From a virus: a DNA stretch of 20,900 nucleotides. The position numbers and the translations under genes were made by a program. Shown one piece after another: positions 10,899-20,792 of the stretch (the stretch's first letter is position 1; each line of letters starts with the position of its first letter). The stretch is from positions 1 through 20,900 of the IMG/VR virus record IMGVR_UViG_3300024346_000630. One strand, given 5' to 3'. The notes beneath the pieces are model-generated. The model had not been told where the DNA came from. It saw nothing but the letters and a program-made list of their open reading frames with translations, and made no database searches.

Positions 10899-11804
10899 TT
10901 AGTTAAGTGTAATTTTGCTACCGAGATCGGTAGGGTTATCGTTCATTTTCCAATCATACGCTTGTGTAAACACATCAGCAACACTATTTCTATTTGTAAA
11001 AGTGCAATCTGTAAGATTGAATTTAAAACCTCTAAAGCTACTTCCGGACAAGCCGTTTCCGGCTGTTATAACGATTGGTACGTTTTGCTTCCAAGTCTGG
11101 ACATTAGAATTGAAGGCGTTTGTAACATATTGTCCGATAGAGCCTGAGAGTATTCTTTTTTCGAGAGTAAATTGAGAGGGGTACATTGAAGTAGCTGCAT
11201 TAGTTACACTCAACGCATTATTGACGGTTTCATAAGGAGTCCATTGAATTTCGTTTTGAAGTTCGATAGAACACTTATAAAGCCCAGAGGAAAGATTAAT
11301 ACCATCTACAGAGACTACTAACTCTTTAGTGAGCTGGTAGTCTCTAGTACCTCTAGCTGGAGTACTCGGAAGAGTTGCTCCTCTAGTCAGTTTAGACGCT
11401 TCTCCAGATAGTGTCAACTTAAGATTCTCTAATTTCTCAATTATGAATGTCCCATTAGTTATAACACATTTTTCCAGCTTATAAACGTCGTTAGGTAGTT
11501 TTATATATAGATCAAAAGTATTTAAGGTATAGGTGCCTGTTTTATAGTCTACAAGAAGATTAAACACTATATCTAAAGTATCTTGTGTAATCATTGGCAC
11601 TGTCATCTCAAAGTTTGCAGGATTAGCTTTTTTAATATTAGATGCTTCGTGCATCTTATGCTGCTCGTGCAGTGTTTTTTGAGGGTACGTCTTATCCGTA
11701 AAAGTTTGGCTAAAGCTTAGGTCAGAAGTTACATCTATTCTATGATATGTTGAGCCATCATAAAGATAAACTTCCGCTTCTTGTTTAAAATTAAAATTAG
11801 CCAT
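10899..11804 (-). CDS. second tail-tube-like / minor tail protein
   Basis: A 301-residue beta-rich protein placed between the major tail tube gene and the chaperones. Its N-terminal region (residues ~26-50: SDLSFSQTFTDKT, then QKTLHEQH) lines up by eye with the same region of the major tube protein at 11901-13013 (DGFSFSQATNSSEVTLNE), including a following stretch with Pro-Ala and an alternating beta strand. I infer a diverged paralogue with the tube fold, perhaps a special ring at the tip end of the tube or a tube-completion protein. ATG at 11804 has GGAG five bases upstream. It has its own promoter and a hairpin in its leader, so its level may be set apart from that of the major tube protein. 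The paralogy is a by-eye judgement. Confidence 0.6.
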   Translation of the reverse strand: MANFNFKQEAEVYLYDGSTYHRIDVTSDLSFSQTFTDKTYPQKTLHEQHKMHEASNIKKANPANFEMTVPMITQDTLDIVFNLLVDYKTGTYTLNTFDLYIKLPNDVYKLEKCVITNGTFIIEKLENLKLTLSGEASKLTRGATLPSTPARGTRDYQLTKELVVSVDGINLSSGLYKCSIELQNEIQWTPYETVNNALSVTNAATSMYPSQFTLEKRILSGSIGQYVTNAFNSNVQTWKQNVPIVITAGNGLSGSSFRGFKFNLTDCTFTNRNSVADVFTQAYDWKMNDNPTDLGSKITLN

Positions 11805-11819
11805 AATTCTCCGGATAGT

Positions 11820-11842
11820 AAAAGGGGCCCAGAAAGAGCCCC
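11820..11842 (-). terminator. terminator-like hairpin after the major tail tube gene
   Basis: On the minus strand GGGGCTC, loop TTTCT, GGGCCCC forms a 7-bp stem with one G-U pair, followed by TTTT. On the plus strand the G-U becomes a C-A mismatch, which supports minus-strand action. The U tract is short, so termination may be partial. It lies between the promoter at 11863-11891 and the next start codon (11804). Confidence 0.7.
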
Positions 11843-11862
11843 TCTACTTTTTCTATTAACAT

Positions 11863-11911
11863 AGTATAGTCCAAAAGACCAAAAATGTCAAGAACTTTTT
11901 TTAAGCACCTA
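11863..11911 (-). promoter_or_regulatory. sigma-70 promoter with conserved upstream element (copy 1)
   Basis: The -35 box TTGACA is at 11891-11886 and the -10 box TATACT at 11868-11863, with a 17-base spacer. Upstream, TAGGTGCTTAAAAA (11911-11898) then A, AGTT, C leads into the -35. The same block occurs at 19458-19484 (25 of 27 bases identical). The upstream end overlaps the last codons and stop of the tail tube gene. Transcription should begin near 11856, just before the terminator-like hairpin at 11842-11820. Confidence 0.75.
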
Positions 11912-13013
11912 CATATTTGATTGCTAATTCATCTGCGGATTCGATGTCTGTTCCGAGAGCGTTAAAAGTAACCTCTAGCGAAATAATGTCATCCAAAGAA
12001 TGAGTTGGTACTTCTAAGTGACATGAAGGCATAGCGAGCTCAAGACGAGGAGCTGCGCTGCCGCCGACTTTGAATAGTAAGTTAAAGCTATTAGTAACTG
12101 TACTAGTGCCTTCAATTAGATTCTCAAACAAATCCATGCTTGAATTAGTGGTATTGTTAAGGTAGCAAGTAAAGCTGCCTGAGACACTACGAGTTCCTGT
12201 TACATGGTCTAGAGGAGTATTTACTACACCCAAGGTTTCTGGAGTTAAGAAAGTCATATTATTGGAAATTGTAATACTTCCACCTGTCAAAGTAAGCGCA
12301 TAAGCAGCTACAGTAGTAGGGCTGGTAGAGGAAGCTACTAACTCAGTTAAACGGTTACGAATAAAGTTGCCAGTACTTGCAATTGCTTCATAAACGGTAG
12401 GGGTGGGTGCGTCTGCTTGTTCAGTAATAATAGTACCCATTCCTGACCAGTTAATTGTAGTAATACCGTCAATGTCGAAATCAATACCTGCTTCGTTTAC
12501 ACAGCAGTTTGAAATCTTATAAGTAATTTTAGACTCACCAGTAGTACCGCCGAGTGTAAAGTAAATATTTGCTTTACCAAGAGTTGTTTTGTTAGAGTTA
12601 GCAAAGGTAATATCCAAATCATCTGTACCAAGAGTAAAACCTTGAAACGCATAAGTTGTTTGAATTGCGTTACCCACTGTCATTGCCCATAAAACTTCTT
12701 CTACTGCGTGATGGTTACCTGCTGTATTATCGGCTGCGCCATCGCCTGTTCCTGCTGACTTAAAAGGACGTGCGTAAGTAGAAAAACTCCACTCTGCAGG
12801 TGCAAGAGAGTCGTTAAACATTTTACGACCACGACGGCTAACATTACTGCCAGCTGACATTTCGTTCAAAGTTACTTCTGAACTGTTAGTTGCCTGTGAA
12901 AACGAAAAGCCGTCAAGTACTGGAATTTCCCATACTCCTGCTTCTGTTCCGTTGGCAAGTAGAGGTGCGACATACACTTTGGTGTCGCGGCTAAAAAACA
13001 TTGTATCTGCCAT
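11901..13013 (-). CDS. major tail tube protein
   Basis: A 370-residue beta-rich protein, high in Thr, Ser, Asn and Gly, placed after the tail terminator gene and before the chaperones: the standard site of the major tube subunit. The N-terminal region (KVYVAPL, then EIPVLDGFSFSQATNSSEVTLNEM, residues ~11-55) resembles the first strands and loop of tube proteins that stack into hexameric rings. The C-terminal half contains a second beta domain with GSFTCYLNNTTNSSMDLFENL (~275-295) and ends with a strand typical of such folds (SLEVTFNALG). ATG at 13013 has AGGAG seven bases upstream, a strong site fitting an abundant protein. A terminator-like hairpin follows the gene. The large size suggests an extra surface domain on the usual tube fold. 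No cleavage or export signals are seen. Confidence 0.8.
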   Translation of the reverse strand: MADTMFFSRDTKVYVAPLLANGTEAGVWEIPVLDGFSFSQATNSSEVTLNEMSAGSNVSRRGRKMFNDSLAPAEWSFSTYARPFKSAGTGDGAADNTAGNHHAVEEVLWAMTVGNAIQTTYAFQGFTLGTDDLDITFANSNKTTLGKANIYFTLGGTTGESKITYKISNCCVNEAGIDFDIDGITTINWSGMGTIITEQADAPTPTVYEAIASTGNFIRNRLTELVASSTSPTTVAAYALTLTGGSITISNNMTFLTPETLGVVNTPLDHVTGTRSVSGSFTCYLNNTTNSSMDLFENLIEGTSTVTNSFNLLFKVGGSAAPRLELAMPSCHLEVPTHSLDDIISLEVTFNALGTDIESADELAIKYVGA

Positions 13014-13076
13014 AGTTAATCTCCTATGTTATCTTGAAAAGACTTGGACTTGAACCTTTGTTCGTGCCAGTATTTT

Positions 13077-13529
13077 CTAGTATCGAACCTCTAGCTGCAT
13101 TTCACCTACACCATAAGGCTCTAGTACACCTTCATCAGTATCAATACTAATGATTGTGATTTGTTGAGTATATTGAAGAGTGCCATTCTTATCCGTATAG
13201 GGCAATCTAGAGCTCTCTTCAATAACTGTTTCTACATCTTCAAGTAAACTTTCCAATGCACTTACTGCATCTTCCTCATTAACATAGCATCTAACCGATA
13301 CGGTGAGGAATCTGTCTTTGTATCCGGCGCCTAGGTACTCTCTAGTCTCTGAGCCAGCATTTAAATGCACCGCTGGAAACTCTTCAACTTCATCCCAAAA
13401 CTTTAACCTAGGGCTTACATTCAAAAATAAGTTTGTTCTATAATTACCAGTACCGTTTATATCTTTTAATTTCTGAACCAATGCTTCTACAATAGCGAGC
13501 CTTCGCGTTGTGTATGTTCTTGATACCAT
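13077..13529 (-). CDS. tail terminator (tail completion) protein
   Basis: A 150-residue alpha/beta protein that probably caps the head end of the tail tube and stops tube growth at the length set by the tape measure. Sequence features fit this class: an opening helix (RLAIVEALVQKLKDI), FPAVHLNAGSETREYLGAGY (~52-71), a strand RFLTVSVRCYV, a helix with EDAVSALESLLEDVETVIEES, and a closing DTDEGVLEPYGVGEMQLEVRY. The last segment is a familiar ending of tail terminators from long-tailed phages. Position between the neck candidate and the tube gene agrees. The ATG overlaps the previous stop by one base (TAATG), with AGGAG upstream, so it is coupled to the 453-residue gene. Confidence 0.72.
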   Translation of the reverse strand: MVSRTYTTRRLAIVEALVQKLKDINGTGNYRTNLFLNVSPRLKFWDEVEEFPAVHLNAGSETREYLGAGYKDRFLTVSVRCYVNEEDAVSALESLLEDVETVIEESSRLPYTDKNGTLQYTQQITIISIDTDEGVLEPYGVGEMQLEVRY

Positions 13530-14890
13530 TATACTCTCCTAGTATAGAATCTGCCAATTGCCATTGAAGCTGCGATCTCTCTTATAGACTTATCGATAAG
13601 TGTTCTTGGGTCTCTATCTGTACTTCCTTGAGCATACCCAGGTTCAAAAGTCTGGTAAGGCCCAAGTTGGTATGTATAGCCAATACTAGGAAAACCTTTT
13701 GGAGTTATTGCGACATCTGTAACTCGTACACTACTTGCAAATCGTCCGGTTCTATTTACAAGAGCTGGTGCACCCATATTTTTTTGAACAGTCCTAGGCA
13801 GTTTTGCATTTAATATACCAATCAAACTTACGATAGACTTTTTAGGTCTTTTACTTCTTTTAATTTTGGTAGCGCCGATAGCACCAATAGAGCCTATCTT
13901 TTTACTTTTACCTGTGACCTTGGACTTGTAAGATTTTGAAACCTTAGTATTCGATTCTTTAATCTTTATGTTCTCGGTAGTTACTTTAACGTTTTTTAGC
14001 TTCTTAAACGGATCTAAAGCTTTATGAAGTACTTTTTTTCTTTTTCGTGTTTTTATTGAATCTGACCCTTCTAAGTTTTCTAATGGGTATTTTTCAATGA
14101 AGTCTAATACTGCTTTTCGCAGCTTCTTACTACGCTCACCTGTTTGTGCTCCGCGTTGTCTGTTTAAGTAGGTAGACTCTATTTTAATTATAATAGAGTC
14201 TGCATTATCGACTTTAGCTATCTCTAACTCGAACCCAAGATCGGCAAGCTCTCTTAATAATCTATCTCTAGCAGCTATAGAATCTTCGTCAGACTCTAGC
14301 TCTAAGCTTTTTGCTATATTTAAGGTGGCGTCATCAATAAATCTTTCAAATACTCCGTAGCCTTCCTCGTGCCCAGCATCAAAGAAAAACTTTATACTTT
14401 TCTTTATACTCTTATCTTTGTTGCGTACTACAAACTCGTCTGCATTTTGCTCAAGCCAGTCTTGCATATCTTTAAAATAATCATTAAGAATGTCTCTATA
14501 AGCTAGCTTAACTTTACTAAATGTTGGTAGCTCCAACGGCTTCATTTTATAGTGAGCAGGCAAGGGAACTGTAGTATCACTAGAAAATACGAGAGTTACT
14601 TTACCGCCAGGCTTTGGTAGACTTGACCCCGCTATAGTTTCTAGTCTGCTTATTAACTTATTACCATGTGTATTACTTAACTCTACTAAATGTGTCTTTA
14701 AGGGGCCTAGTATTTCTTTAGGTAGCTTATTCCCCCCTTTCTGCAACTGCTTAATAGTTTGGGATACTAGGGTTCTTTTGTTAAAAACGAAAGTATGTTG
14801 CTCTAAGTTTAGAAGTGATCTATACTCTTTATAACCCTGTAGCTCTTGGTGTAGTTTATGCACGAAAGAGCCTAGTGCCTGCTTAGACAT
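13529..14890 (-). CDS. putative neck / tail-completion protein with long basic N-terminal part
   Basis: A 453-residue protein between the connector and the tail terminator, where HK97 has a gp10-like protein of little more than 100 residues. Its last ~100 residues (VNRTGRFASSVRV, then YQTFEPGYAQGSTDRDPRTLID and SIREIAASM) look like the C-terminal part of such neck or completion proteins. The N-terminal ~340 residues are not recognised: helical, with KSIKFFFDAGHEEGYGVF (~165-185) and a strongly lysine-rich stretch (~265-345) that could contact DNA or act as a linker. Start overlaps the connector stop as TAATG without a strong Shine-Dalgarno site. A 10-bp inverted repeat lies inside the gene (14174-14201). 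The general role as a head-tail joining protein is inferred from place; the N-terminal part is of unknown function. Confidence 0.5.
   Translation of the reverse strand: MSKQALGSFVHKLHQELQGYKEYRSLLNLEQHTFVFNKRTLVSQTIKQLQKGGNKLPKEILGPLKTHLVELSNTHGNKLISRLETIAGSSLPKPGGKVTLVFSSDTTVPLPAHYKMKPLELPTFSKVKLAYRDILNDYFKDMQDWLEQNADEFVVRNKDKSIKKSIKFFFDAGHEEGYGVFERFIDDATLNIAKSLELESDEDSIAARDRLLRELADLGFELEIAKVDNADSIIIKIESTYLNRQRGAQTGERSKKLRKAVLDFIEKYPLENLEGSDSIKTRKRKKVLHKALDPFKKLKNVKVTTENIKIKESNTKVSKSYKSKVTGKSKKIGSIGAIGATKIKRSKRPKKSIVSLIGILNAKLPRTVQKNMGAPALVNRTGRFASSVRVTDVAITPKGFPSIGYTYQLGPYQTFEPGYAQGSTDRDPRTLIDKSIREIAASMAIGRFYTRRV
14174..14201. repeat. perfect 10-bp inverted repeat inside the 453-residue gene
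   Basis: AGACTCTATT, an 8-base AT-only spacer, then AATAGAGTCT. No T run follows on either strand, so it is not a terminator. It could fold in the mRNA or be chance. It codes for a short Ile-rich strand (DSIIIKIES). Confidence 0.6.
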
Positions 14891-15477
14891 TAAAAGTTCT
14901 TATATAAATCTAACACACGCTTAATATGATCTGGGAACGCTACGTTGTTTGTTTGAGAGCTAGACGTCTGATTTGTTACAGTTGCGCCTGCAAGAGTTTT
15001 ACGCTCTTTGTGCTCATCCTTCAAATAGTAGGTAATCAAATCTATTACTGCGAGTTTTAAATCTGCTGGGCATTCTGCATAACCGGCTTTGTATGTTACA
15101 CGTACAGCACCTGGGCCCTGTGGGAACGATTTATACCCATTATATCCATTGCTTCTAAATATACTATCAGTTACATCGTCAAAATAATAGTCCGAATTCG
15201 CTGTTAAAGCAGTATAAGTACCCGAAATAAAGTCTCGTTCTTCTACAGATACCATACTTACAAGAGGGCTCTCTGTTAATTGAACAGATGTAGTGGAATA
15301 ATTTATACTGTATGTTTCTATTTTATTAGTTGTATAATGATCTACGAAAGTATTATTACAATAAGTTTTTACTAATTGACTTACAGAACTTATCAAAGAG
15401 TTAATGCGAGCATCGTCCTTCGAAGACTGAATGCTCTCCGATTCTTTGTATTGTTCTAAGGTTAATAAATCTGCCAT
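14890..15477 (-). CDS. head-tail connector, gp6-like
   Basis: A 195-residue protein following the capsid gene, matching HK97 gp6 / SPP1 gp15-type connectors that form a ring under the portal. Features: an N-terminal helical part with LLTLEQYKESESIQSSKDDARINSLISSVSQLVKTYCNN (in pieces, ~4-42), where this family reads 'D-x-x-I-x-x-L-I-x-x-A'; a beta region with SPLVSMVSVEERD; then PGAVRVTYKAGYAECPADLKLAVIDLI (~120-147), a strong hallmark of the family (VTYxAGY, P-x-D-L-K-x-A). It is longer than HK97 gp6 because of the middle beta region. ATG at 15477 has only a weak ribosome site. A hairpin/terminator in the short gap separates it from the capsid gene and may lower its expression relative to capsid. 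Confidence 0.8.
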   Translation of the reverse strand: MADLLTLEQYKESESIQSSKDDARINSLISSVSQLVKTYCNNTFVDHYTTNKIETYSINYSTTSVQLTESPLVSMVSVEERDFISGTYTALTANSDYYFDDVTDSIFRSNGYNGYKSFPQGPGAVRVTYKAGYAECPADLKLAVIDLITYYLKDEHKERKTLAGATVTNQTSSSQTNNVAFPDHIKRVLDLYKNF

Positions 15478-15497
15478 TAATTTATAAGTCCATTAGT

Positions 15498-15522
15498 AAA
15501 AACTTAGGGGAGCGAGCTCCCC
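15498..15522 (-). terminator. hairpin/terminator after the capsid gene
   Basis: On the minus strand GGGGAG, loop CTCG, CTCCCC forms a 6-bp GC-rich stem, followed by TAAG and then TTTTT. The plus strand gives the same stem followed by CTTG and TTTTTT, so it could act both ways. Its site 20 bases after the capsid stop suits a partial terminator or a 3'-end stabiliser for the abundant capsid message. Confidence 0.65.
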
Positions 15523-15541
15523 CTTGTTTTTTACTCTGCTA

Positions 15542-17506
15542 TTAAGCGATGTAGTCCAACTTAACAAGTGGTTCGTGAGTAGCCGCAACACCGTCTACTA
15601 GCTGGTTAAAGCCAAGAGACTGAGTAGCAACGATTACACGACGCTGTTCCATAACTTCGTAATCACTCTCAACCGCAACACCACGGAGACGTGGAATTAC
15701 ATAGTTAGGAGTATAAACTGCGAAAGCTGCTGGAACACCAATTGCTGCTGCTGGGAACTGCTCAGAAACAACTACTGGAGTACCGTAAACGGCACCGATA
15801 ACGCCAGAAATACGAGTAGCAAGGTCAGAACCTACTTCAGTTACAGTCTGGAAGTCTGTATCGTTCAGAAGGTCAAAATAACCATCCTGGCTAACGATAT
15901 AAACGAGCTTAGTTGGGTCAATACCATACTTACCCATCTTAGTGCGCATGCCCAAAAGCATATCAGAAGTCAGAGCAGTGCTAGAGCCAACAGACATGGT
16001 AGAAGTAGCATCATTATAAGCAAGAACGTCCATACCGTCGAAGCCTTGTGAACCAGCAGTTGCGTTAACAAGCGCGAATTCAACACCAGTTGCGTGTGAA
16101 CGAGCTACTGATTCTACTAGCATAGGCATAAGGTTAACAAGAACTTGCTCGTCAACTTCATTTTCCATGAAAGTAGTAGAAATCAGACGGTGTGCAGTCA
16201 AAGTTGCTACAGTAGGACGACCGCCATTGGTCAGGTTACCAGCTGTTGCTGCGTTAGTGCCCCACTGAGCTCCGCCATTGTCCATTTGAATTGGCAAAGT
16301 AGTTGAGTTGCCCATTACTTGAATCTCGCGGAAAAGCTTAGCAATCTTAGTTTCGTTCATGATTTCTTTTTCAATCAAAGAAGATACTTCAGTATCAATG
16401 TTCAATGCTTGAGTAGCGCCATCATAAGTAAGACCTGATTTCTCTTGAACGTTGCGAGCAAAAGAAGTGTTCATGCCTTTACCAGTCATAACACCCAACA
16501 GGTGAGCATACATGAAGTCCTTGCCCCACTTAGAAAGATCGCCTTTAGCGTCTGAACGATCGCCAAATACGCGCTTGCTGTTACGCATAGCTTCGATTTC
16601 TGCGTTCTTCTCTTCGAGGTCCTTGCCAAACTTGCCAAGTACTTCTTCGAGCTTAGCATCTTTCTCAGCTAATTTAGCTGCTACGTCGGCCATAAGAGAC
16701 TCTACGCCAGTCTGAATGCCTGTTTTAATACGAATTTCTTGTGCTTCGATTGCTGAAGCTTGAGCTGCTTTAGCGTCAAATTCTGCTTTCTCAGCTGCTT
16801 TTTGTTCGGCTTGCTTCATTGCGATTTTGGCAGCAGTTTCGTCCGCTACTTTTTTAGCAAAAGCTTCCAAGTCGATGTTTTGGTTATCCATTTTGATCTC
16901 CTGATCTGTAGATTTCTCTACGCTTTGCGGTGCGTCACTAGCTACGCTAGAAGTATTGACTTCGTCTTTAGCCAGAGACTGACCGGCTAGATCCACACGA
17001 TTAGTGAAAGTTTTTTTGAATTCTTCGTACTCTGCAATAGAGTCAAAAGACTTCGATAGCGAAAAAGTAGCTGCTTGGTTACAAGGAACGGAAACAACCG
17101 AAACTTCAAACAACTCAGCGTCCTTAATCATAAGTCCATCGGTTTCTTTAATATAATCAGCATCCTTGACTCTGAAACCGACAGAAAAGGCTCCAAGAAC
17201 ACCGTCTTTAACAAGTTCAGCTACATTACCAGGTGCATTTTTACTAATCTTACACTCTAGCTCTAGTCCGTTAGGGCCAGCTTTCATACCCGTAGCTCTA
17301 CCAATTGGTCTATCATAATCATGATTAAATAGAATAATTGGATTTTTTTCAAAGTTTTTTAATCCACCTTTTTGCCAAGCCTCTGCTGAGATGGAATCAC
17401 CTGCGCGGTCAAAGTCAGCTGTACTTGCCATACCACGAATCATTACAGAACCGTCATCTGATTCGAGGGCTTTAAAAGTAGATGTAAGATTAAAGATTTT
17501 ATCCAT
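15542..17506 (-). CDS. fused prohead protease, scaffold and major capsid protein
   Basis: One 654-residue ORF holds three functions. Residues ~1-150 are an S78-type prohead protease: GMASTADFDRAGD (25-37), LFNHDYDRPIG with likely catalytic His62, GAFSVGF with likely catalytic Ser108, and LFEVSVVSVP with Glu134. Residues ~206-310 are a charged, Ala/Glu/Lys-rich coiled coil, the place and size of the HK97 delta (scaffold) domain, ending near a likely cleavage area (RNSKRVFGDRSD). Residues ~325-654 are an HK97-fold capsid domain (TTLPIQMDNGGAQW, STTFMENEVDEQVLVNL, YIVSQDGYFDLL, GTPVVVSEQFP). In most HK97-like phages protease and capsid are separate genes. A strong internal start at Met206 would yield a 449-residue scaffold-capsid. 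The main ATG has only a weak GGAAAG upstream, overlapping the end of the preceding gene. Confidence 0.9.
   Translation of the reverse strand: MDKIFNLTSTFKALESDDGSVMIRGMASTADFDRAGDSISAEAWQKGGLKNFEKNPIILFNHDYDRPIGRATGMKAGPNGLELECKISKNAPGNVAELVKDGVLGAFSVGFRVKDADYIKETDGLMIKDAELFEVSVVSVPCNQAATFSLSKSFDSIAEYEEFKKTFTNRVDLAGQSLAKDEVNTSSVASDAPQSVEKSTDQEIKMDNQNIDLEAFAKKVADETAAKIAMKQAEQKAAEKAEFDAKAAQASAIEAQEIRIKTGIQTGVESLMADVAAKLAEKDAKLEEVLGKFGKDLEEKNAEIEAMRNSKRVFGDRSDAKGDLSKWGKDFMYAHLLGVMTGKGMNTSFARNVQEKSGLTYDGATQALNIDTEVSSLIEKEIMNETKIAKLFREIQVMGNSTTLPIQMDNGGAQWGTNAATAGNLTNGGRPTVATLTAHRLISTTFMENEVDEQVLVNLMPMLVESVARSHATGVEFALVNATAGSQGFDGMDVLAYNDATSTMSVGSSTALTSDMLLGMRTKMGKYGIDPTKLVYIVSQDGYFDLLNDTDFQTVTEVGSDLATRISGVIGAVYGTPVVVSEQFPAAAIGVPAAFAVYTPNYVIPRLRGVAVESDYEVMEQRRVIVATQSLGFNQLVDGVAATHEPLVKLDYIA
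16889..16902 (-). promoter_or_regulatory. internal ribosome site and start codon for scaffold-capsid
   Basis: Inside the protease-capsid ORF an AGGAG (16902-16898) stands six bases before an in-frame ATG (16891-16889, Met206). The downstream product would begin MDNQNIDLEAFAKKV, exactly at the start of the coiled-coil scaffold domain. The site is a better match to the Shine-Dalgarno consensus than that of the full ORF. It gives a simple way to make many capsid subunits and few protease copies. Confidence 0.65.
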
Positions 17507-17507
17507 C

Positions 17508-17846
17508 TTACTTTCCCGTTTTAACTGCCGTAGCAGGCTTAACCGTTGCTTTAGGCTTTTCAGCTTTAAGCTCTGGTTCTACTTTAGATACCGCCGGCTT
17601 GGGTGCTGGCGATACTTTTTTCTCTTCTGCTTTAAGAATTTCTGCCCAGAGTGCTGGTTCATGTATTTCAACAGCTTTAAGAAGTCGGGGCCATCTTCCA
17701 AAATATTTTTTAATAGCTTGAACAGATAAAGGTGCGTCTTTCATGTGTCTATACTGTTCGATGTCTTTTGCGAGACCATTCTCAAATAGAAAGACTGCCA
17801 TTGATGCGACAAGTGCTTTCTTTTTTCTGATTGGTAGTTCTGCCAT
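17508..17846 (-). CDS. small protein with HNR-like DNA-binding motif and basic tail
   Basis: I place the start at ATG 17846 (112 residues, MAELPIRKKK), since AAGGAG lies six bases upstream; the longer reading from 17885 has no such site. The start is one base after the portal stop. Residues ~25-62 (KDIEQYRHMKDAPLSVQAIKK then YFGRWPRLLKAVEI) resemble the short helical repeat seen beside homing endonucleases (pattern: P-x-S, I, then FGSW and A-L-x-A). Residues ~75-112 are a Lys/Ala/Pro-rich tail like that of histone H1. This suggests nucleic-acid binding. No small terminase is seen in the window, so that role is possible but not shown. Other options are a capsid-interior DNA-binding or portal-associated protein. 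Function is not established. Confidence 0.6.
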   Translation of the reverse strand: MAELPIRKKKALVASMAVFLFENGLAKDIEQYRHMKDAPLSVQAIKKYFGRWPRLLKAVEIHEPALWAEILKAEEKKVSPAPKPAVSKVEPELKAEKPKATVKPATAVKTGK

Positions 17847-17847
17847 T

Positions 17848-19050
17848 TTATTCTCCTTGTGAATCAGGCTGTGTCGGTGCGCCACCCTGTTCAGGGTTTA
17901 CTGCGCTTCCGGCAATATTTGCAGGTATTCGAATATCATCATGACCATCCATGTGGTCAAACCCAAGAGCACTTCGTGCTTCATTGGCAGATATGATTCC
18001 TGTGTTTACTAATGATGCGTAGTATGCTGAAGCATCTCGTAGTTCTGGCTGTAGTGCCGGAATATCTGTAATATCCTCGTATAACTCGAAACCAAAAAAT
18101 CTCTCTAGTGCTCCATTCAACTTTCTTACGATAGGAAGGACAGTTTCGAGATAGTATAAACGCATATTTGGACGAATATTTGCATTATTACCAGAATCTA
18201 ACATAATTGGAGGAATTCCAAGTGCCTTCAGAACAACCTTTTCGTTATCTGCAATAGCTGCTTGGAAATCTAAGTCTTTAAAGCTTACATTTGAAAGCTG
18301 GTCTACTTCAATTCCGCCATCAAGTATAAGAGGTCTACGACCACCTGCATCAGGGCTATAGCGCTGCTGCCAGGCCATTATCATACGCTCTTTAATTTTG
18401 TCTGATAATGTATTCGGGCTTTTAAGAACAAGACCAGGAATAGCTCCATTCTTAAAGAAATTATCTTGGAAGTCTCGCATACGCTTCATAAGTATCATTG
18501 TACGAAGAGCAGGTTTTAAACGAGAGGTGCCTCTATAGATAGAGTAGAAGGAGTTTTCCTTTATGTGAATTATCTCGCTTGGAGAATAATCAATCTTACC
18601 ATTAAAAGTAAATTTCTCAATGTAAGTAGTATCACTCGCATGAATAGTCATTTTGCTAGCAGGTAAGTGATACAGGTGAGCACCATCAAAGTAAATAAAG
18701 ATATTACCGTCAATAATATAATCTGTAATTAAGTTACGACGAAATGTGCTAATATCCTGAAAAGGGTTGGGCTCTTTGTTGAGTAACAAGTCAACTCGTG
18801 AGCGTTTAATTCCTTTTACAACTCCAGAAGTATTTAACTGCTGAGCAACTGTTGTTGGAATAGCTGCTGCATCATCTACAATCATATTTACACCGCGATT
18901 TACTACTTCTAAATCTTCGTATGCTTTCTCGTACTGGTAGGTATATTCGCGTGAAGGCTCTATATTATGGCCATAGTAACTTTGAGCAGGGTTTAATTTC
19001 TCCTCTGCATCTACGCGATTACGCCCTAAAATAGTATCATACCAAGCCAT
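17848..19050 (-). CDS. portal protein, HK97 family
   Basis: A 400-residue protein of the HK97/lambda-like portal class, the dodecameric ring through which DNA enters and leaves the head. Typical pieces are present: RGVNMIVDDAAAIP near residue 52 (the family's 'V-x-x-c-I-x-x-i-a' region), LLLNKEPNPFQDISTFRRNLI with GNIFIYF (~88-120), the clip/stem region with HIKENSF and YRGTSRLKPALR, and a helix with GIPPIMLDSG and MRLYYLETVLPIVRKL (~275-315). It ends with NEARSALGFDHMDG and a flexible tail. The ATG overlaps the end of the endonuclease gene by 14 bases and has AAAGAGAA upstream. The size is normal for the family. It is followed after one base by the 112-residue gene. Confidence 0.93.
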   Translation of the reverse strand: MAWYDTILGRNRVDAEEKLNPAQSYYGHNIEPSREYTYQYEKAYEDLEVVNRGVNMIVDDAAAIPTTVAQQLNTSGVVKGIKRSRVDLLLNKEPNPFQDISTFRRNLITDYIIDGNIFIYFDGAHLYHLPASKMTIHASDTTYIEKFTFNGKIDYSPSEIIHIKENSFYSIYRGTSRLKPALRTMILMKRMRDFQDNFFKNGAIPGLVLKSPNTLSDKIKERMIMAWQQRYSPDAGGRRPLILDGGIEVDQLSNVSFKDLDFQAAIADNEKVVLKALGIPPIMLDSGNNANIRPNMRLYYLETVLPIVRKLNGALERFFGFELYEDITDIPALQPELRDASAYYASLVNTGIISANEARSALGFDHMDGHDDIRIPANIAGSAVNPEQGGAPTQPDSQGE

Positions 19051-19402
19051 ATTTTTCTCTTTGAATCTCTACCCAACGCATCTGCTTTTTTGCTGTTCCG
19101 AGCGCAGGGTCTTTTCCGTAAATTGAATGCAATTTTAAATGATGGCTATGACATAAAGTGACAGTATCATCGTATAGCTCGCGAGAGTGCTCTTCAATAA
19201 AATCATCCCGAAGTGATTGTATGTATTCAGGATTATGCTTATTCTTTAACATCCACTGATTGAGCAGGGGCGTTAAACTATAATAATGGTGAAAATCAAG
19301 TTGCTCTGTTTCGTTACAAATCTCACAGGCCGTTCCCTTCTGGTACTTAGACTTTGCCTTATCACGGACGTACTTCACTATATCACGTTTTAACTTAGGC
19401 AT
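19037..19402 (-). CDS. small HNH endonuclease next to the terminase
   Basis: A 121-residue HNH protein. A zinc-binding pair C26-x2-C29 and C84-x2-H87 frames the beta-beta-alpha-metal core, with D36-F-H38-H39 supplying the first catalytic histidine and TLCHSHHLKLH (82-92) the closing part. The N-terminal end is basic. In HK97-like phages an HNH protein near the terminase (gp74 in HK97) helps packaging by working with terminase, and this gene, between terL and portal, may do the same. A free-standing homing HNH nuclease is the other choice, but the tight overlap with the portal gene and its own consensus promoter favour a packaging role. The Shine-Dalgarno site before the ATG (GGAAA) is weak; the leader from the promoter would be about 26 bases. 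Confidence 0.85.
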   Translation of the reverse strand: MPKLKRDIVKYVRDKAKSKYQKGTACEICNETEQLDFHHYYSLTPLLNQWMLKNKHNPEYIQSLRDDFIEEHSRELYDDTVTLCHSHHLKLHSIYGKDPALGTAKKQMRWVEIQREKYGLV

Positions 19403-19435
19403 TTCGGTTTCCAGGATTGATTTTTCATTAGAAGA

Positions 19436-19484
19436 ATTATAACTACTTTAAGGTCAGATGTCAATAACTATTTTTAAGCACCTA
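19436..19484 (-). promoter_or_regulatory. perfect sigma-70 promoter with conserved upstream element (copy 2)
   Basis: The -35 box TTGACA is at 19464-19459 and the -10 box TATAAT at 19441-19436, with a 17-base spacer, all matching consensus. Upstream, TAGGTGCTTAAAAA (19484-19471) then T, AGTT, A leads into the -35, as in the copy at 11863-11911. Transcription should begin near 19429 and run into the HNH, portal and capsid genes. Confidence 0.85.
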
Positions 19485-19485
19485 T

Positions 19486-19500
19486 CACTAGAAGCTAGTG
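19486..19500. repeat. short hairpin over the terminase stop codon
   Basis: CACTAG, three bases, CTAGTG: a perfect 6-bp inverted repeat containing the terL stop, directly upstream of the conserved promoter element. There is no T run right after it, so it is not a standard terminator. It may be an operator half-pair for a regulator, or chance. Confidence 0.45.
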
Positions 19501-20792
19501 GCTGAGCTTTGGAATGAATAGAGGGCGTATCGTAGCGCATCAGCCATGTGCGATGCCATATTATGCCTCGGCTTTTCCTTAATTAAATTAGGGTTTGGGT
19601 CCCATTGATACGCATCTACACAAGTTAAGCATTCCTTTTGCATCTGGTCTATAATGATTTTATCATTATCCATTAGACTTGCAACATGAGATATTCCATC
19701 GAGCACCGACTTCTTCGCATTGATTGTAGAAATTCCATAGTTTTGTGCAAAGTCAAAACGAGTCTGCTGTGCCGCACTATCAATATAAATATAATCAATA
19801 TCGTAAAGGTCGATAAGTTTTTGTATTTCCTCTGCGTGTTGTTCCGTTGTTCTTTCAGAGTTAAGATACTCTGCGAGTAAATAGTACTTCTCTGCATCCC
19901 AATCATATGCGATTACACACATTGCTGTTGGGTCTTTGAAACCAACGTCCAACCCCGCAAAGACGTCCATTCTACTAGTATCGAGATTAGACAGGTCTGC
20001 AGTGCATTCCTCGAAGTTGAACTTCCAAATCTGGCCTTCGTATGTATTAAAGTCAGCTTCATACTCTTGCTTAAATTCTGCTTCTGACATAGACTTCCGA
20101 GCTTCTTTAATATCACTTTCTGTCATACGCGGATTATCGCGATAAGTTGCACGAATACTACACCACTCTTCAAATTCGTCTGAATAACCTCTATGGTAGA
20201 ACTCAGAGAACCAGTTGTTGCGACCCCGTGGCGTGGAAATGAAAATTGCTTTTGAATTTGGTTTATCAAGCGTAGGTCGGAGTGCTACGTTAAAAGCATC
20301 TCGTCCATCTGCAAGTGCGGCTTCGTCAAATATAATCAGGTCATAAGAGCGACCCACACAAGAATCCACCTGATTGACAGAGCCCATGCGAATGGTGGAG
20401 CCGTTGGAGATTTCGATAACTTTATCTTTTGCGTTATCTTTTGTAACTTCTAAATCAAAATGTTTAATAAGGTTTCTTTGAAGGTCAAAAGAAATCTGAG
20501 ACAAGGCGTAGTTGGGGGACATGATAAGGATATTGGACCCTGGTACAAGGGAGACTAGTTGTCCAATAATGTTAGCGATGTATGTCTTTCCCTGTCGTCG
20601 AGAAACGGCGGCACAGACAAAACGATACTTCGGATTATTGATCGCATTGATAATTGCTACCTGCGATGGGAGTGGTTCTACTCCCAATAAATCCAAGTAT
20701 GGAGGTATTGGGAGCTTAATGAACCTTGTCTCAGATTGTAACTCTAAAATGTTATCGCCAGTTATATCTCTCCGGCTTATTTCAATTGCCAT
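19488..20792 (-). CDS. terL: terminase large subunit (packaging ATPase-nuclease)
   Basis: A 434-residue motor protein that drives DNA into the prohead and cuts it. The ATPase domain has a Walker A of the type SRRQGKT (64-70), Walker B LIIFDE (152-157, with catalytic Glu157) and the coupling motif FISTPRG (184-190). The RNase-H-like nuclease domain has GLDVGFKDPTA (Asp282), IYIDSAAQQ (Asp338) and HMADALRYAL (Asp418), the three expected acids. The length is normal. The C-terminal part is short after the last Asp. ATG at 20792 follows the stop of an upstream gene by 25 bases with only a weak ribosome site. No small terminase gene is visible; it may lie to the right of the window or be replaced by another protein. 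Confidence 0.95.
   Translation of the reverse strand: MAIEISRRDITGDNILELQSETRFIKLPIPPYLDLLGVEPLPSQVAIINAINNPKYRFVCAAVSRRQGKTYIANIIGQLVSLVPGSNILIMSPNYALSQISFDLQRNLIKHFDLEVTKDNAKDKVIEISNGSTIRMGSVNQVDSCVGRSYDLIIFDEAALADGRDAFNVALRPTLDKPNSKAIFISTPRGRNNWFSEFYHRGYSDEFEEWCSIRATYRDNPRMTESDIKEARKSMSEAEFKQEYEADFNTYEGQIWKFNFEECTADLSNLDTSRMDVFAGLDVGFKDPTAMCVIAYDWDAEKYYLLAEYLNSERTTEQHAEEIQKLIDLYDIDYIYIDSAAQQTRFDFAQNYGISTINAKKSVLDGISHVASLMDNDKIIIDQMQKECLTCVDAYQWDPNPNLIKEKPRHNMASHMADALRYALYSFQSSATSF

Follow-up and report, generated by a model that had tools for sequence, protein, structure and literature searches.

A predicted genome-wide promoter class with a fixed A-tract and a small ACC/GGT box in an uncultured marine clade of T5-like phages

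What makes two predicted promoters of one phage, one at the junction of the tube and tail genes and the other between the terminase large subunit (TerL) gene and the HNH-portal-capsid genes, almost identical over 27 bases? The question arises from a 20,900-nucleotide stretch of DNA (hereafter the window), which is the complete deposited virus record IMGVR_UViG_3300024346_000630 and a 20.9-kb fragment of the genome of an uncultured marine T5-like phage. The pattern TAGGTGCTTAAAAANAGTTNTTGACAT occurs exactly at 11885-11911 and 19458-19484, both on the minus strand, and nowhere else in the window at up to three mismatches; it gave no match in 100 dinucleotide shuffles. The initial annotation of this DNA had described a 27-base element present twice with 25 of 27 bases identical, and both copies were recovered. 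Its -35 box with a -10 box 17 bases on was likewise found, as TTGACA-17-TATACT in the first (tube) copy and TTGACA-17-TATAAT in the second (HNH) copy, and so was its placement of the sites: copy 1 overlaps the tube stop codon (...GTA GGT GCT TAA), while copy 2 is intergenic and begins 4 bases past the TerL stop. The predicted promoters, with +1 positions inferred from the -10 box alone, are composed as follows.

11863-11910, minus strand: P-tube, at the tube-tail junction, where a class promoter is present in 42 of 44 distinct relatives
Parts of P-tube: AGGT box 11907-11910 (-54 to -51), A5 11898-11902 (-46 to -42), -35 TTGACA 11886-11891, spacer GGT 11878-11880, -10 TATACT 11863-11868, predicted +1 11856
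19436-19483, minus strand: P-HNH, at the junction of TerL and HNH-portal-capsid, where each of 59 distinct homologous sites has the ACC or GGT box
Parts of P-HNH: AGGT box 19480-19483, A5 19471-19475, -35 TTGACA 19459-19464, spacer ACC 19452-19454, -10 TATAAT 19436-19441, predicted +1 19429

Because the window is a whole contig and a genome fragment, the genome-wide search for the 27-mer class was run on relatives. TerL relatives are encoded on at least 596 environmental contigs; we used 80 loci each for TerL and tube together with 17 long contigs, the longest of 72.9 kb, and the genome-wide counts cover the window and the 17 longer contigs, 653 kb in all. An AAAAA tract lies exactly at -46 to -42 in 60 of 80 exact TTGACA/TATAAT pairs, and a -10 box follows 16 to 18 base pairs (bp) downstream of every one of the 73 AAAAAWA-N4-TTGACA strings in the window and the 17 contigs. 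The reversed pattern had no match in 20 contigs. The next open reading frame (ORF) on the same strand starts within -30 to +100 of the predicted start for 82 of 100 promoters (10% at random), and 4 of 100 lie inside long ORFs (91% at random). The -10 spacing, the proximity to ORF starts and the empty reversed control together identify the pattern as a promoter class, which recurs on the order of every 5 to 8 kb and, as the initial annotation had proposed to look for, before genes throughout the relatives' genomes. By sequence, both window sites belong to this one genome-wide class of an uncultured marine T5-like clade. Mere chance resemblance or coding constraint might be suspected at copy 1, which overlaps the tube stop codon and where GGT GCT is coding; the absence of shuffle matches, the reversed-pattern control and the class-wide conservation refute that explanation, to which we give practically no weight.

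The architecture, drawn from 52 non-redundant promoters, is (ACC/GGT at -54/-53)-N5-AAAAA W A N T T C-TTGACA-W-N16-TATAAT, which we also write as the AAAAAWANTTCTTGACA class. The A5 at -46 to -42 was partly a selection criterion for this set. Conservation extends to columns that played no part in selection, namely -41 (A/T, 52/52), -40 (A, 51/52), -38 (T, 40/52), -37 (T, 42/52), -36 (C, 43/52) and -52 (C/G, 44/52), and it was repeated in a hold-out set of 29 further promoters from other loci, picked without looking at the ACC/GGT box. This architecture, its positional constancy and its conservation are observed, as is its near-restriction to phage sequence: in three bacterial bins carrying such phage contigs (5.2 Mb), 18 of 19 matches fall on six contigs that encode proteins of this phage group, and the remaining one, with a single mismatch, lies in a contig stretch without such proteins. 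The class can therefore be called phage-specific, as first suggested, in that it is recurrent in relatives and practically absent from the bacterial contigs of the bins examined; since a bin need not be the host, this holds against these chromosomes and not against the true host. The labels on bins with such contigs (Porticoccaceae, Halieaceae, an unnamed gammaproteobacterium and two more that are unlikely) are only a hint of the host.

Which polymerase would read these promoters? We consider it very probable that they form a genome-wide class with sigma-70 hexamers and a fixed A-tract whose most likely readers are the host RNA polymerase and the C-terminal domain of its alpha subunit (alpha-CTD), with the ACC/GGT box as an extra contact. 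The hexamers are perfect or near-perfect sigma-70 consensus (TTGACA, 16-18 bp, TATAAT) and stand upstream of genes. The proximal alpha-CTD subsite of Escherichia coli rrnB P1 is AAAAAARNR at -46 to -38 (PMC2801614), and the A-tract at -46 to -42 with W-A at -41/-40 has that register. The description of the A-run as UP-element-like was thus apt, with the addition of a conserved box upstream of it, and the exact placement at the proximal UP subsite makes the host sigma-70 polymerase the likely reader. A phage sigma factor was considered as the reader and rejected, as no sigma region 4 gene (PF04545) was found in the 20 contigs. In T5, the pre-early, early and late classes are all transcribed by the host sigma-70 polymerase (PMC7472727). 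From the consensus hexamers, the lack of sigma region 4 and the T5 precedent we infer strong host-read promoters; promoter strength, the sigma-70 and alpha-CTD reading and any protein at the box are all deduced from sequence. The host polymerase with its housekeeping sigma would read the -35 and -10 boxes, alpha-CTD would dock on the A-tract and so give strong promoters without a phage sigma factor, and the ACC/GGT box would provide the extra contact, perhaps with a DNA-binding protein of phage or host origin beside alpha-CTD.

Several observations weigh against this reading. The T that predominates at -38 stands where the E. coli proximal-subsite consensus has R, and no UP consensus includes the TTC at -38 to -36, so part of the motif calls for a different reader or for a preference peculiar to the host. 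About one-third of the non-redundant promoters lack the ACC/GGT box, as do 14 of 40 distinct tube-site sequences. The start sites, in addition, are predictions, and the genomes are fragments.

When all 32 trimer pairs are compared at the position of the box, ACC/GGT ranks first. ACC or GGT occurs at -56 to -51 in 34 of the 52 promoters (upstream control windows: mean 6, maximum 13) and in 22 of the 29 hold-out promoters (control mean 3.9, maximum 7), and at the HNH site the box is present in all 59 distinct relatives, as ACC in 56 and as GGT in the 3 of the window clade. A second, weaker ACC/GGT lies in the spacer near -25 (19/52 versus 8). A fixed 29-bp spacing between the upstream and spacer boxes was tried and rejected: spacings of 28, 29 and 30 bp occur at 3:8:3, no better than independent positions. 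The initial annotation had taken GGTGC as the conserved unit; GGT, or equally ACC, turned out to be general, whereas the GC is not conserved, and the rest of GGTGC at copy 1 is part of the conserved C terminus of the tube protein (..YVGA-stop). Tube-site promoters that have moved off the stop codon often retain GGT or ACC. The retention of the box through a flip from ACC to GGT suggests that its orientation matters little. A dedicated phage-encoded activator or repressor could bind such a box in either orientation at promoters genome-wide, as the positional enrichment in two independent sets, the flip with retention in the window clade and the weaker copy in the spacer would lead one to expect. 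However, 3 to 4 bp are short for a dedicated site, one-third of the promoters lack the box, no candidate protein was identified, and the box could instead delimit the A-tract through DNA shape; we therefore treat a dedicated factor as a tentative idea, conceivable rather than probable.

The close resemblance of the two window copies calls for an explanation of its own, as the same 27-bp segment has 17.4 +/- 2.2 bases in common among the 52 non-redundant class members, which places 25 of 27 in the extreme tail. Gene conversion, or recombination through the A-tract, by which one copy was copied onto the other, would produce such a pair, and the HNH site of the window clade is indeed unlike that of most relatives at several bases, where it resembles the tube site. 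Yet both internal differing bases stay typical of their sites (T and A at HNH, A and C at tube), and an ACC-bearing relative, L019 (ACCTGCTT), already has the GCTT of copy 2. L019 carries ACCTGCTTAAAAAT, from which two substitutions, CC to GG, give AGGT, the reverse complement of ACCT, together with the tube-like AGGTGCTTAAAAA, and suffice for that part of the likeness. Another genome, G003, also holds a 25/27 pair, at unrelated sites. The site-typical bases and the L019 intermediate speak against copying, which we regard as very unlikely; the near-identity reflects the class consensus together with a flip from ACCT to AGGT at the HNH site that is specific to this lineage.

The initial annotation had further proposed a late-gene class. 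Both window copies precede units of virion genes, within the order TerL, HNH, portal, a small gene, a fused protease-capsid gene, connectors, tail terminator, tube, baseplate tube and further tail genes. The genes next to the two promoters are the following.

19488-20792, minus strand: terminase large subunit (PHROG 2), upstream of P-HNH
19037-19402, minus strand: HNH-type endonuclease gene (PHROG 3497/8048), first after P-HNH, with a predicted 5' untranslated region of 27 nucleotides (nt)
17848-19050, minus strand: portal gene (PHROG 12), second after P-HNH
11901-13013, minus strand: major tail (tube) protein gene (PHROG 3575, E 1.7e-58), with its stop codon inside P-tube
10899-11804, minus strand: baseplate tail tube/minor tail protein gene (PHROG 3889), first after P-tube

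On the 72.9-kb contig, the class stands on one strand before the TerS, HNH-portal, tail and tail-fibre-assembly genes, and on the opposite strand the same architecture stands before the two halves of a split NAD-dependent ligase and before genes for DNA-binding proteins and a primase. The class is thus not confined to late genes. A late-specific class read via the 27-base element, with GGTGC as the regulator site that sets the HNH-portal-capsid and tail units, is made improbable by these opposite-strand copies as well as by the lack of conservation of the GC and the predominance of ACC at the HNH sites. In T5, it is chiefly the discriminator that separates early from late promoters (PMC7472727). 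Among the opposite-strand, presumably early, copies the discriminator starts with A in 12 of 13, while on the other strand it varies; these are few, related sequences from two contigs. Two observations concern the starts of genes behind class promoters. In most relatives seen, the TerS gene has a conserved ATG about 6 to 8 nt past the class -10 box (L171:5825-6330 and equivalents), and as this ATG falls at about +1/+2, the gene appears to be leaderless. A 12-amino-acid leader peptide after P-HNH (MKN...) was considered and rejected, its ATG being lost in relatives such as L038.

How does this class compare with that of T5? The window TerL is about 50% identical to that of Pectobacterium phage My1, and isolated T5-like phages of Pectobacterium and Vibrio show about 50% identity for TerL and about 34% for the tube protein; by these identities the window phage is T5-like (Demerecviridae-related), without a close isolate. 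The P-tube DNA region had no match when searched against isolated phages. The promoters annotated in T5 (AY543070) are likewise phage-wide, read by host polymerase, with a consensus -10 box, 17-bp spacing and an A-run about 10 bp upstream of the -35 box, and they are found at the same ligase genes and around tail genes. However, the typical T5 -35 box is TTGCTT or TTGCTA with AAAAATTNAT in front, a form that the TTGACA of the marine class does not share, and in T5 ACC/GGT is at background (4/45), A at -40 is found in 6/45 and C at -36 in 11/45. The whole genomes of T5, My1 and X1 have few class matches at up to three mismatches. T5 P-J5 (AY543070 99936-99975) and its counterpart at My1 100138-100177 are one mismatch from the marine class core and are possibly an ancestral or a convergent form; P-J5 sits within the gene that precedes the major tail gene, a neighbourhood in which the window has only a weak TTGGCA-18-TATAAT at 13557. 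The likeness to the rrnB P1 UP element is to the proximal subsite only, with the A-tract in the same register, as in the proximal-only UP element of phage Mu Pm (PMC4390567), whereas the class has T instead of R at -38, a TTC up to -36 and, in place of the distal A/T-rich subsite, a box containing G/C. The class is thus of a known kind, phage-wide host-sigma promoters with a UP-like A-tract, in a new variant. In the middle promoters of T4, a MotA box centred near -30 replaces the -35 box. A similar string, TGCTTAA, is present in both window copies; we rejected a MotA-type promoter, as the string lies at -51 to -45 and not at -30, the -35 box is perfect and the string is not conserved among relatives.

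The description of P-tube as a promoter stands, with class membership added, but it had left out a terminator-like hairpin that begins at about +9.

11817-11848, minus strand: predicted hairpin with a U-run in the P-tube leader, from about +9 to +40, ending 13 nt before the ATG of the tail gene
Parts of the hairpin: core stem 11836-11842 / 11824-11830, U-run 11820-11823 (4 long)

The hairpin is G+C-rich, and its z-score against shuffles, computed on the window alone, is just -1.95, so the case for it rests on conservation. Promoter followed by hairpin is the order in 27 of the 42 distinct relatives with a class promoter at the tube junction; the remaining 15 have the hairpin at another place in the junction, ahead of the promoter in the cases inspected. 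The reversed order was seen in L099, L108, L119, L130, L133, L134, L154 and others. A leader hairpin follows 1 of 195 other class promoters. Stem positions 4 to 6 vary among CG, UA and GC with pairing kept; as the sequences were required to pair, the variety of pairs, and not the pairing, is the evidence for the stem, and the pairs were counted in stem-anchored sequences because a MAFFT alignment of the leaders had shifted stems. The spacer of the tube site (GGTC..TT.GAC) is conserved, as are the spacers of other sites. A second terminator-like hairpin, GGGGGAGCTCGCTCCCCT with a T-run, lies directly after the capsid gene (15506-15523, minus strand), so that each of the two highest-copy virion genes has a hairpin behind it.

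The window leaves no space for a further promoter ahead of the tail gene, and with the promoter first, tail transcription must pass the hairpin. P-tube could then be attenuated or controlled by antitermination, with a terminator within about 37 nt and tail expression by read-through, an arrangement compatible with the host-polymerase reading of the class as a whole. The hairpin and U-run directly in the leader, the varied pairs in 27 distinct relatives and the lack of space for another promoter are in its favour, and there is precedent in promoter-proximal terminators bypassed by antiterminators, such as tB, which starts 54 nt past the start site of an AlpA-controlled promoter (PMC7969949). 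Lambdoid late (Q) and AlpA-controlled promoters resemble P-tube alone within the class, having an intrinsic-terminator-like hairpin within tens of nt (PMC6606751, PMC7969949), and the leader terminator typical of Q-type modules is predicted at P-tube from sequence and structure. P-tube differs in that no known antiterminator gene is found in the fragments: Antiterm (PF03589) and Phage_antitermQ (PF06530) were absent from all 20 contigs, themselves fragments, and PF06323 was also absent, uninformatively, as the control for that profile gave no signal either. The terminator-then-promoter order in the 15 other distinct relatives, moreover, fits a plain terminator of the tube operon, and the window U-run is merely 4 long. 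On balance we think attenuation or antitermination control at P-tube a reasonable minority possibility. Among the roles that the hairpin may have, we favour partial attenuation that would set tube:tail ratios; antitermination and protection of RNA 5' ends are possible.

Two further observations concern the virion genes. A single window ORF of 654 amino acids (15542-17506, minus strand) encodes a fusion of prohead protease and major capsid protein; full-length fused ORFs (652-716 amino acids) are present in 15 of the 17 relatives' contigs, the other two running off the contig, and in phages My1 and X1 the two genes are separate. In L064 (12600-12760), a class promoter with an TAGGTGTTTAAAAA element precedes a seemingly second tube-like gene (MADKLFFSRDTKV), which suggests a tube gene duplication.

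Recognized from sequence, the class provides a predicted map of transcription for a T5-like clade that is common in the sea and uncultured, and its pattern is clean enough to help find, orient and bin genomes of that clade. In T5-like phages, which use only the host sigma-70 polymerase, the basis of the early-to-late switch is an open question (PMC7472727). Here one rigid architecture serves early and late promoters alike, so the discriminator, the small box or something downstream must contain the switch, and fewer places are left to look for it. P-tube, which runs into its own putative terminator, is a candidate for dosage or antitermination control. A fuller scheme, in which an undescribed factor would bind the orientation-indifferent box together with alpha-CTD and the tail promoter would fire into a leader terminator needing undescribed antitermination, seems unlikely to us.

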